The notes under the pieces: generated by a model | What the model was told of the DNA's origin: nothing | What the model saw: only the letters and a program-made list of their open reading frames with translations | Databases searched by the model: none | Position numbers and translations under genes: made by a program | Assembly (NCBI GenBank): GCA_026388275.1 | Contig: JAPLKB010000009.1 | Span: 1 to 64,000, forward strand | Origin: Pseudomonadota bacterium | GTDB lineage: Bacteria; Desulfobacterota; Syntrophorhabdia; Syntrophorhabdales; Syntrophorhabdaceae | Reading direction: 5' to 3' | Length of the DNA stretch: 64,000 nt | Shown: one piece after another, positions 3,285 through 15,809 of the stretch | How positions within the stretch are numbered: position 1 is the first letter of the stretch | How the letters are laid out: each line of letters starts with the position of its first letter

Positions 3285-4457
3285 CTACTTACTAAGTACC
3301 TCTTTAAAAAAGGGTCTTGAACGCTCAATAATATCCATCTCAACACAATATGCGATCCTGAAATAGCCCTGTTTGCCGAAACCTATCCCTGGAACTGCCA
3401 GTACACGATGTTTTTGAAGGTTGCTTACAAATTTTATATCATCTTTTATCGGCGACTTCGGGAAAATATAAAAGGCGCCCTCAGGTTTTACAACTTCAAA
3501 GCCTGCATCTACAAGTATATTGTAAATAACATCCCTCTTTTTCTGATAATCTGCTATATCTACGCTCTTTTTCTGAAACTTACCGACAAGCTTCTGCATG
3601 ATTGCCGGGGCATTGATGAATCCAAGGATTCTGTTTGCAAATATGGCAGCGCCTATAAGCGCTCCAGCGTTCTTCATAAGTGGAGAGATTGCGATGTAGC
3701 CTATCCTCTCACCGGGAAGTGCAAGGTCTTTTGAGTGGGATGTAACCGTAATTGTGTCTTCGTACAGGAGAAACATGTCTGGAAACTGAATGCCGTCATA
3801 TAGGATCTTTCTGTATGCTTCATCGGAAATAACAAATATTCTCTGCCCTTTCCTCTTTCTTTCATTGAGCACGGATACAAGTTCTTTAAGCTCTTTTTTG
3901 CTATATACAACACCTGTCGGGTTATTGGGAGAATTTATAATGATTGCCTTTGTCTTTTCAGTGATAGCTTCTTTGATCTTTTCGATGTCGAGATGAAAAT
4001 CATCCTTTGTGTCTACGAGCTTCATTATACCACCGTGGTTTCCGATATAGAACATGAACTCCACAAAGAACGGGCATGGCACAATTACCTCATCCCCTGG
4101 GTCCAGGAGCGATTTCATTACAACATTAATGCCTCCTGCACACCCTACTGTCATTATAATGTGGTCCTTTGTAAAATCAAGGCCTGAACGTTCCCTGTGA
4201 AATTCTGCAATCTCTTCCCTGACATCTTCGTAGCCGCTGTTGGTCATATACCTGTGCATGCCCTTTGTACCGGATGAAACTATTCTTATAAGTTCCTTTT
4301 TTAACTCATCCGGGGGCTCGGTAATCGGGTTGCCGAGGGTAAAATCATAGATTTGCTCCTGACCGTATTGTTTTTTAAGCCTTTCCCCTTCTTCAAACAT
4401 AGCCCTAATCCAGGAAGAACTTTTCATTGATTCCGAAATATTTTTTGAGATAACCAT
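3285..4457 (-). CDS. PLP-dependent class I/II aminotransferase, downstream copy of a pair
   Basis: A fold-type I aminotransferase of 390 residues. NSPNNPTG (175-182), DEAY (212-215), SHSKDLALPGERIGY with the PLP-binding lysine at 243 and its arginine at 251 are all present. It is similar along its whole length to the gene at 4469-5653, from which it is separated by only 11 bases, so the pair arose by tandem duplication and forms one operon. Substrate specificity cannot be read from the motifs, but the operon leader peptide is packed with Phe and Tyr codons, which argues for an aromatic amino-acid aminotransferase acting in Phe/Tyr synthesis or turnover. Confidence 0.9.
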   Translation of the reverse strand: MVISKNISESMKSSSWIRAMFEEGERLKKQYGQEQIYDFTLGNPITEPPDELKKELIRIVSSGTKGMHRYMTNSGYEDVREEIAEFHRERSGLDFTKDHIIMTVGCAGGINVVMKSLLDPGDEVIVPCPFFVEFMFYIGNHGGIMKLVDTKDDFHLDIEKIKEAITEKTKAIIINSPNNPTGVVYSKKELKELVSVLNERKRKGQRIFVISDEAYRKILYDGIQFPDMFLLYEDTITVTSHSKDLALPGERIGYIAISPLMKNAGALIGAAIFANRILGFINAPAIMQKLVGKFQKKSVDIADYQKKRDVIYNILVDAGFEVVKPEGAFYIFPKSPIKDDIKFVSNLQKHRVLAVPGIGFGKQGYFRIAYCVEMDIIERSRPFFKEVLSK

Positions 4458-4468
4458 TTACTGCCTCC

Positions 4469-5653
4469 TTATGAATATCGCTTCCCTATTCTTCTGAAAC
4501 CATCAAGGGCATTCATTATTTTCTCCATAGTCACACAGTATGCAATCCTGAAATAACCGCTTCTGCCAAAACCTCTTCCAGGTACAACGAGAATTCTCTC
4601 TTCTCTTTGTACTCTCTTAACGAATGCAAGCTCGTCCTTAACCGGAGATTTTGGGAATAGATAAAACGCTCCGCCAGGTTTTACGCATTCGAAACCCGAT
4701 TCAATCAGTGTGTTGTATATAATATCCCTCTTTTTTTTGTATTCCAGAACATCTACGGAATTTTCCTGAAACTTTCCGGCAGCCCGTTGAAACAATGCAG
4801 GAGCATTCACAAATCCCAAAGCCCGTATGGATATAATAAGTCCGGAAACAAGAAGATCAATCTCCTTTATATTCGGTGATATAGCAATGTACCCTATTCT
4901 TTCTCCAGGCAGAGCAAGGTCTTTTGAGTGAGATGTAATACTGATGGCAAGATCATAGATCTCAAAGATATTCGGCAACACAATGTTGTCATAAACAATC
5001 TTTTTATATGCCTCATCAGCTAAAAGATATATTTCTTTACCTTCCTCTCTTTTCTTGTACAACAGTTTTGCCAATTCTTTCAGACTTTCTTCGCTGTATA
5101 CAGCCCCAGTAGGATTATTCGGGCTGTTTATTAGAATAGCCTTTGTTTTTTCGTTTATTGCGTCTTCTATTTTTTGTATATCAAGTTGAAAATCATCTTT
5201 TGTATCAACAAGTCTCATGATTCCGCCGAAGTTTTCAATATAGTTTTTAAACTCCCAGAAGAACGGGTTCGGTACAACAATCTCATCACCCTTATTCAAC
5301 ATGCTTTTAAAAAGTATGTTAATGCCACCGGCACACCCGACTGACATGAAAATATGTTTGCTTGTAAAAGGTAATCCGTAATGCATCTCCATGTACTGGG
5401 CAATTTCTTCCCTTACGCTTTGGTAACCACTGTTCTCCATATACTTGTGCATGCCCGGTGTTGTTTGTGTAAGCATATTTATCAGGGCAGACTTTAATGC
5501 CTGGGGGGGTTCTACATCAGGGTTACCGAGGGAAAAGTCGTAAACTTTATCTTCACCCAAGGTCTTCTTCATCTGCATACCTTCTTCAAACATCTTCCTT
5601 GTCCAACCCTCCTGGTTCTGGATAAGCTTTCTCATCTTGTTTGAAACTATCAT
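4469..5653 (-). CDS. PLP-dependent class I/II aminotransferase, upstream copy of a pair
   Basis: A paralogue of the next gene with the same motif set: YDFSLGNP, NSPNNPTGAVY, ADEAYKKIVYD, the lysine in SHSKDLALPGERIGY, and a C-terminal SGYFRIAYCV. The reading frame stays open up to 5698, but a strong AAGGAGG stands just before ATG 5653 and the extra residues would be encoded inside the attenuator hairpin, so 5653 is the real start (394 residues). It is the first gene of the operon controlled by the Phe/Tyr leader at 5752-5829. The pair may differ in substrate (for example phenylpyruvate against hydroxyphenylpyruvate or branched-chain keto acids); that is inference. Confidence 0.9.
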   Translation of the reverse strand: MIVSNKMRKLIQNQEGWTRKMFEEGMQMKKTLGEDKVYDFSLGNPDVEPPQALKSALINMLTQTTPGMHKYMENSGYQSVREEIAQYMEMHYGLPFTSKHIFMSVGCAGGINILFKSMLNKGDEIVVPNPFFWEFKNYIENFGGIMRLVDTKDDFQLDIQKIEDAINEKTKAILINSPNNPTGAVYSEESLKELAKLLYKKREEGKEIYLLADEAYKKIVYDNIVLPNIFEIYDLAISITSHSKDLALPGERIGYIAISPNIKEIDLLVSGLIISIRALGFVNAPALFQRAAGKFQENSVDVLEYKKKRDIIYNTLIESGFECVKPGGAFYLFPKSPVKDELAFVKRVQREERILVVPGRGFGRSGYFRIAYCVTMEKIMNALDGFRRIGKRYS

Positions 5654-5672: not shown

Positions 5673-5705
5673 AAAAAGGCCATAGAAATAGGTGCCATGG
5701 CCTTT
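5673..5705 (-). terminator. Second terminator-like hairpin in the aminotransferase leader
   Basis: On the minus strand AAAGGCCAT (5705-5697) pairs with ATGGCCTTT (5683-5675), followed by a short U-run (5677-5673). It lies between the main attenuator terminator and the Shine-Dalgarno of the first aminotransferase, so it may act as a back-up terminator. Loop of 13 bases. Confidence 0.55.
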
Positions 5706-5706
5706 A

Positions 5707-5744
5707 AATAAAAAGAGCCATGGGCATTGCACCCATGGCTCTTT
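5707..5744 (-). terminator. Attenuator terminator of the aminotransferase operon
   Basis: On the minus strand AAAGAGCCATGGG (5744-5732) pairs perfectly over 13 bp with CCCATGGCTCTTT (5724-5712), with a 7-base loop and a U-rich tail. It stands 8 bases downstream of the leader peptide stop codon. The GGGTGCAA that spans its arm and loop (5734-5727) is exactly complementary to TTGCACCC inside the leader peptide coding region (5778-5771), giving a mutually exclusive antiterminator pairing. Confidence 0.85.
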
Positions 5745-5751
5745 GCTTATA

Positions 5752-5829
5752 TTAAAGCAAATTTATGCCCGGGTGCAAGCTTCTAAAGTAAAAGTAAAAA
5801 AAACTAAAAAATTCTCTAAACATTTCCAT
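5752..5829 (-). CDS. Phe/Tyr-rich attenuation leader peptide (25 aa)
   Basis: Reading from ATG 5829 on the minus strand gives MEMFREFFSFFYFYF followed by RSLHPGINLL and a stop at 5754-5752: seven Phe and two Tyr codons within codons 4-15. This is the pattern of amino-acid attenuation leaders such as those of pheA and pheST. The Phe/Tyr run ends 7 bases before TTGCACCC (5778-5771), the segment that can pair with and disrupt the terminator at 5707-5744. A ribosome stalled for lack of Phe-tRNA (or Tyr-tRNA) would leave this segment free and allow read-through; a fluent ribosome would cover it and permit termination. The ribosome site is weak (GTTGAG), and ATG 5823 is an alternative start. Function is inferred from sequence architecture only. 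Confidence 0.8.
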   Translation of the reverse strand: MEMFREFFSFFYFYFRSLHPGINLL

Positions 5830-5836
5830 ACTCAAC

Positions 5837-5865
5837 ATTTAAAAACAATATGTTATGCTTGTCAA
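5837..5865 (-). promoter_or_regulatory. Sigma70-type promoter of the aminotransferase operon
   Basis: TTGACA (5865-5860), 17-base spacer, TTAAAT (5842-5837) on the minus strand. Transcription would start near 5830, almost at the leader peptide ATG 5829, so the leader peptide would be nearly leaderless from this promoter; an additional upstream promoter is possible. Confidence 0.55.
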
Positions 5866-15713: not shown

Positions 15714-15809
15714 TGGCGGAAGTGCATGGGAATCGAACCCACCCACGAGCTCATCACCCGTGCACTGGTTTTGAAGACCAGGAGACCCACCAGGCGCCTT
15801 GGCACTTCC
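15714..15809 (-). tRNA. selC: tRNA-Sec (anticodon TCA)
   Basis: Minus strand 15809 to 15714. The acceptor arm is GGAAGTGC/GCACTTCC (8 bp, the selenocysteine-specific length). The anticodon loop reads CTTCAAA, giving TCA, on the stem CTGGT/ACCAG. There is a long extra arm and a T-loop GTTCGATTC. G-CCA is encoded at the 3' end (15717-15714). A UGA-decoding selenocysteine tRNA implies that selA, selB and selD exist elsewhere; none is in the window. Confidence 0.95.

Follow-up and report, generated by a model that had tools for sequence, protein, structure and literature searches.

The 64,000-nt window analysed here (contig JAPLKB010000009.1 of assembly GCA_026388275.1, family Syntrophorhabdaceae) carries on its minus strand two tandem genes encoding class I/II aminotransferases, preceded by a leader that comprises a predicted promoter, a short ORF rich in Phe and Tyr codons and two U-tailed hairpins (Table 1). 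The two aminotransferases are 57% identical, their genes are separated by an 11-nt gap, and the tandem pair is kept across the family Syntrophorhabdaceae and the order Syntrophorhabdales. A Shine-Dalgarno sequence, AGGAGG, is located upstream of the first of these genes, behind both U-tailed hairpins. Among the solved structures, the one nearest in sequence (3ele) carries only the name 'Amino Transferase'.

Table 1. Leader elements, the downstream gene pair and sister attenuators (window positions, unless a contig is named)
Feature	Position	Strand	Basis and details
Predicted promoter	TTGACA 5865-5860; TTAAAT 5842-5837	minus	consensus scan; 17-nt spacer
Leader peptide ORF MEMFREFFSFFYFYFRSLHPGINLL	5829-5752	minus	25 codons; ATG 7 nt past the -10 box, predicted leaderless start
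Phe/Tyr codon run	5820-5785	minus
Region 2, antiterminator 5' arm, TTGCACCCGGGC	5778-5767	minus	folding with region 3, pair counts
Stop-codon hairpin	5761-5742	minus	TTTGCTT 5761-5755 / AAGCAAA 5748-5742; compensatory changes
Terminator 1	5742-5710	minus	AGAGCCATGGG 5742-5732 / CCCATGGCTCT 5724-5714, U run to 5710
Region 3 (of terminator 1)	5742-5732	minus	extends through GGGTGCAA to 5727
Region 4 (3' arm of terminator 1)	5724-5714	minus
Terminator 2	5705-5673	minus	AAAGGCCATGG 5705-5695 (region 5) / CTATGGCCTTT 5685-5675 (region 6), U run to 5673
Aminotransferase 1	4469-5653	minus	PRK06836 / NF005305, class I/II; 523 bits vs. cut-off of 376
Aminotransferase 2	3285-4457	minus	PRK06836; 558 bits vs. 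cut-off of 376
L117, source genome	contig C64, 114501-114619	minus	leader MKEQRKMQENINKYFGWWYFNASLHPRPH before DAHP synthase and aroB
L123			WRFYW leader before pheA
L125, L126			Phe/Tyr leaders before aroFGH-type DAHP synthase, then pheA
L148			Trp run before trpE
L150, L152, L176			Trp runs before TrpB-like genes

A sequence-only reading of this DNA had proposed that the leader encodes a 25-residue peptide with seven Phe and two Tyr codons, and direct reading of the sequence confirms this peptide: in MEMFREFFSFFYFYFRSLHPGINLL, Phe occupies positions 4, 7, 8, 10, 11, 13, and 15, and Tyr positions 12 and 14. The proposed exact complementarity within the leader was found as well, TTGCACCC (5778-5771) being the reverse complement of GGGTGCAA (5734-5727), and the second U-tailed hairpin noted behind terminator 1 is the one assigned by us as terminator 2 (5705-5675 and the U run). 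The antiterminator pairing proposed in the same reading is longer than the 8 bp noted at first: it is a helix of 11 bp with one bulged A (TGCACCC-G-GGC with GCC-A-UGGGUGCA), in which the TGCACCC stretch is followed by a G paired with U and then by GGC/GCC around the bulged A, and which encloses the stop-codon hairpin. The predicted fold of the 193-nt leader has an energy of -57.9 kcal/mol (z = -4.4), equalled by none of 200 shuffles. A short ORF with nine Phe/Tyr residues in 12 codons did not arise in any of 3000 dinucleotide shuffles, while the 8-base complementarity of TTGCACCC and GGGTGCAA is on its own less striking (37 of 3000 shuffles).

In the upstream regions of relatives with the tandem pair, the leader element was present at 40 of 40 Syntrophorhabdales loci; contigs too short to cover the upstream region were left out of this count, and one of the 40 loci (L031) is cut by a contig end within the Phe/Tyr run. 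Terminator 2 is absent from locus L019, and leader L027 has lost its hairpin-loop stop codon. At the codons -8 to -4 before a conserved His codon, Phe or Tyr is encoded in 85, 97, 97, 95, and 100% of the 40 leaders, respectively. Phe and Tyr replace each other, and TTT alternates with TTC and TAT with TAC; the interchange of the two residues fits the sensing of both amino acids.

An RNA model constructed from the 40 leaders and run over 395 genomes of the phylum identified this element in 19 genomes from five more families (f10, f13, f26, f74, and f82), where it precedes a single-copy gene for a PRK06836-type aminotransferase. Model matches of less than about 45 bits take in ordinary tandem terminators (e.g., L118, before an NRAMP gene, and L136) as well as opposite-strand echoes of the palindromic hairpins; weak matches were accepted as attenuators only when accompanied by a fitting leader ORF and gene. 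For homologues from another six families (L056-L061), the upstream sequence read contains no such leader. When named genomes were scanned with a DNA pattern, the element turned up in Syntrophorhabdaceae-like MAGs; one match in Daejeonella was rejected as a likely product of chance. The occurrence of the leader before single-copy orthologues indicates that it is older than, or independent of, the gene duplication. Hence, the proposal of an attenuator on a duplicated aminotransferase operon holds as far as its position before the tandem pair is concerned, but the leader is not tied to the duplication, as the other families have one copy. The preservation of the Phe/Tyr frame and of the alternative pairings in relatives, on which the sequence-only reading had made its proposal depend, is evident both at the 40 loci of the order and in the 19 genomes elsewhere.

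These data also bear on a possibility that the hairpins are ordinary terminators of upstream transcripts and that the Phe/Tyr frame arose by chance in T-rich sequence. The Phe/Tyr run is indeed T-rich, but no shuffled sequence yielded such an ORF, the frame, run, and pairing are kept in about 59 genomes, and the sister leaders described below contain Trp codons instead of T-rich runs. The conserved frame, pairing, and start position refute this explanation, and we consider it extremely improbable.

When the leaders were folded without region 4, the antiterminator formed in 41 of 41 cases (z < -2 in each, mean -4.3), and its computed stability exceeded that of terminator 1 in 40 of 40. The 2:3 pairing shows compensatory changes, such as that of TTGCACCC/GGGTGCAA to GGTCACCC/GGGTGACC, and the antiterminator of other leaders contains continuous CACCCATG/CATGGGTG. 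Compensatory pairs in the antiterminator outnumber those in all 500 shuffles on most measures, as well as those in slid controls, by alignment counts in which kinship is ignored. Within Syntrophorhabdales, region 3 is highly conserved, and the covariation of regions 2 and 3 comes mostly from the outer pairs and from distant families; an A.C mismatch in this pairing occurs in one relative (L033). The stop-codon hairpin, with variants such as TTTGC/GCAAA and GTGCC/GGCAC, has compensatory changes at six of its seven pairs, and 79% of cells are paired. Covariation of the pairings and conservation of the Phe/Tyr codons in relatives, suggested earlier as a check of the proposed mechanism, thus both speak in its favor.

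The stop codon lies 7-15 nt ahead of terminator 1 in most leaders and within region 2 in others. A ribosome located 7-15 nt before terminator 1 would block the antiterminator and leave the terminator largely free. In trp-type attenuators the stop codon is inside region 2, like in part of the leaders studied here.

High conservation of the LHPG tail of the leader peptide could suggest a selection at the protein level and an action of this peptide in trans, as described for the Sinorhizobium peTrpL peptide (PMC7298713). However, the LHP codons form region 2 and are constrained by its pairing with region 3, and in the leaders in which region 2 is changed (to GGTCACCC or GGCTCATCC), the peptide reads RGHP or RAHP and region 3 carries the matching change. 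A function of the peptide in trans is therefore highly unlikely.

An exact TTGACA and a -10 box are present in each of the 38 Syntrophorhabdales leaders scanned, usually with a spacer of 17 nt and a fair match at the -10 box. In 36 of these 38 leaders, the AUG is located 6-10 nt past the -10 box and is not preceded by a Shine-Dalgarno sequence. Such a short distance predicts a transcript start at or near the AUG, and the leader mRNA is probably leaderless, with a predicted 5' end at the AUG or within a few bases of it. In the source sequence, a second in-frame ATG (5838) is within the predicted -10 box TTAAAT, which leaves the ATG at 5829 as the usable start. In other families, the AUG follows the -10 box by 12-37 nt, and a Shine-Dalgarno sequence is often present. 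The short distance from the -10 box to the AUG recurs in most of the order's sister leaders (those of aroF, pheA, and TrpB-like genes and a Tyr-rich aminotransferase leader). If the prediction is true, the start of transcription coincides with that of leader translation, which is a simple arrangement. The transcript of the Sinorhizobium meliloti trpL attenuator starts at the AUG of the leader ORF (PMC7298713).

The leader thus combines a short Phe/Tyr-rich ORF, U-tailed hairpins before the first gene and, behind the regulatory codons, a compensating antiterminator that excludes the terminator. Most probably (with a probability of about 0.93), it is a transcription attenuator of the ribosome-mediated type, which responds to charged tRNA-Phe and tRNA-Tyr and lies ahead of the two aminotransferase genes; classical Phe/Tyr attenuation, as put forward in the sequence-only reading, is supported by the anatomy, conservation, folding, and compensatory pairs. 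The following course of stalling, termination, and read-through may be deduced from the sequence, its conservation, folding, covariation, and spacing. RNA polymerase would start at or next to the AUG of the 25-codon leader ORF. Under a shortage of Phe or Tyr, the ribosome would stall in the Phe/Tyr run and leave region 2 free to pair with region 3 around the stop-codon hairpin, which would block terminator 1 and permit the transcription of both aminotransferase genes. With both amino acids in good supply, the ribosome would reach the stop codon, cover the stop-codon hairpin, and end near the foot of terminator 1; the 2:3 pairing would be prevented, the 3:4 pairing would form, and transcription would stop at terminator 1 or terminator 2.

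In its Phe-rich peptide, mutually exclusive antiterminator and terminator, and amino-acid genes downstream, the leader resembles the Phe attenuators of gammaproteobacterial pheA and pheST (RF01859). It differs from them in the mixture of Phe and Tyr codons, the second terminator, the hairpin around the stop codon, the predicted leaderless start, the control of aminotransferases, and the occurrence in another phylum. The score of the leader against the Rfam Phe_leader family (RF01859) is 17.1 bits (E = 2), below the gathering score of 55, and a search of Rfam at gathering and permissive thresholds returned no relevant family.

In Firmicutes, amino-acid supply genes are under T-box control, and by eye the TGGCACC of terminator 2 resembles a T-box core, which could indicate a T-box or another leader that binds tRNA or a protein, the short ORF being incidental. 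However, the leader has no Rfam T-box match, either at the gathering score or among weak matches to E = 10, its length does not suffice for a T-box stem I, and its coding frame is conserved, so that there is very little chance of this explanation being correct.

The trpL attenuator of S. meliloti shares with the leader a transcript beginning with the leader-ORF AUG (predicted in our case) and transcription attenuation (PMC7298713), but it responds to Trp and not to Phe/Tyr, belongs to another phylum, and shows no homology as far as tested. A study of leaderless transcripts of mycobacteria proposed Cys-rich upstream ORFs as leaders (PMC4633059); they are similarly candidate leader ORFs with many codons for the amino acid under regulation, and differ in the amino acid, genes, and phylum. 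We found no description of a leader like that of the aminotransferase pair in the literature on Phe/Tyr attenuation in Deltaproteobacteria, on aminotransferases under attenuation, and on amino-acid synthesis in Syntrophorhabdus, a search that took in few subscription journals; earlier comparative studies of attenuators in proteobacteria may refer to relatives. The leader is a new case, at the phylum level, of a known mechanism, with an unusual architecture and a metabolic puzzle attached.

The RNA model indicated also sister attenuators in the phylum, which precede aroF-aroB, pheA, trpE, and TrpB-like genes (Table 1). Like the Phe/Tyr leader, they comprise a leader ORF, region 2 behind the regulatory codons, and CC(A/G)TGG-type terminators, usually two, but their codon content follows the pathway, and several of them lack terminator 2. 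The leader of the source genome at L117 contains Phe, Trp, and Tyr codons and has similar counterparts in relatives. The agreement between the codons of sister leaders and the genes behind them strongly supports the reading of the Phe/Tyr leader as an attenuator. In this phylum of anaerobes, many aromatic amino-acid genes are evidently preceded by leader-peptide attenuators, and the set is absent from Rfam.

Several observations concern other leaders and genes. The third ORF behind the L117 leader (214 aa) has no NCBIfam match at the threshold used. A Tyr-run leader (FSYYYYYYTPG) is present at L122 (genome G004, contig C57) before another aminotransferase gene, whose product is 27% identical to the source pair. 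At L132 and L141 (family f22), a FabK-like gene follows a leader that has tandem terminators and an ORF containing leucine. Tandem-terminator leaders with Phe/Tyr or Tyr runs occur at L120 and L144 before genes of periplasmic binding proteins (Peripla_BP_6 in L144, assigned by eye only in L120), which suggests attenuated amino-acid uptake.

The presence of two terminators allows for a two-stage relay. When the 2:3 pairing is formed, the freed region 4 could pair with region 5 and thereby disarm terminator 2 as well; when the 3:4 pairing is formed, region 5 would remain free, and terminator 2 would act as a second stop. Regions 4 and 5 are able to pair in almost every leader (99.6% of cells), and the 4:5 matches exceed those of all 5000 permutations (38 distinct arm sets). 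Five arm sets have U at position 10 of region 4; in four of them, region 5 carries A while region 3 stays G (G.U), so that changes in region 4 are mirrored better in region 5 than in region 3. In L024, the 4:5 pairing is perfect despite a mismatch in 5:6. The 4:5 pairing has a mean energy of -16.4 kcal/mol, emerges ahead of region 6 and is weaker than terminator 2 by no more than 3 kcal/mol in 27 of 40 leaders. On the other hand, terminator 2 exceeds 4:5 in stability by a mean of 2 kcal/mol, leaders of family f10 have a C.A mismatch in 4:5, and the control pairing 3:6 also exceeds its permutations and scores almost as well, so that part of the 4:5 signal reflects the mutual resemblance of all four arms. 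The cross-pairing between the arms of both terminators suggests a relay without proving it. A simple back-up terminator accounts for most of these observations and is the simpler reading; we regard the relay as a tentative proposal, with somewhat less than an even chance of being true.

Attenuation by Phe and Tyr implies that the enzymes are most likely phenylpyruvate and 4-hydroxyphenylpyruvate aminotransferases that would work in the synthetic direction. The prediction of an aromatic substrate class for both of them, based on regulation and pathway context, is well supported, and in this way the leader indicates what kind of substrate is likely for a family of aminotransferases that has been known by a number only.

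The source genome (99.5% complete) yielded matches to neither prephenate dehydratase nor prephenate dehydrogenase, while all 14 control genomes match each of them. Prephenate dehydratase is also absent from 29 of 37 Syntrophorhabdaceae genomes. In the phylum sample, it is missing from 22 of 36 leader-bearing vs. 34 of 359 other genomes (odds ratio of 15, kinship being ignored and genomes with a leader missed or unchecked being counted as leader-free); among the leader-bearing genomes outside Syntrophorhabdales, 12 of 19 lack it. The retention of a Phe/Tyr-starvation switch on aminotransferase genes despite the missing last steps suggests another route to Phe and Tyr.

Some anaerobes carboxylate arylacetates to arylpyruvates with ferredoxin oxidoreductase-type enzymes and then transaminate the products. 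Such carboxylation would plausibly explain why a Phe/Tyr-controlled aminotransferase is kept in the absence of the prephenate steps. The source genome encodes two indolepyruvate ferredoxin oxidoreductase alpha subunits above the curated cut-off, and a further indolepyruvate ferredoxin oxidoreductase locus of this genome (L197) adjoins another aminotransferase gene. In a relative, a Trp-run attenuator precedes TrpB-like, aminotransferase, and ferredoxin-oxidoreductase-like genes (L200, 1377-6296, minus strand), and a Trp route via indolepyruvate is possible for this operon. One may speculate, with considerable doubt, that a leaderless two-terminator relay has outlived the usual pathway and that in the Syntrophorhabdaceae without prephenate dehydratase and dehydrogenase the twin enzymes make Phe and Tyr from arylpyruvates of another source, for example from the ferredoxin-dependent carboxylation of arylacetates.

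Elsewhere in the window, a c-di-GMP-I riboswitch (163-265; 44 bits) is located upstream of a gene encoding a protein with a PEP-CTERM-like tail (415-1221), and a selenocysteine tRNA gene is present at 15718-15809 (72 bits).
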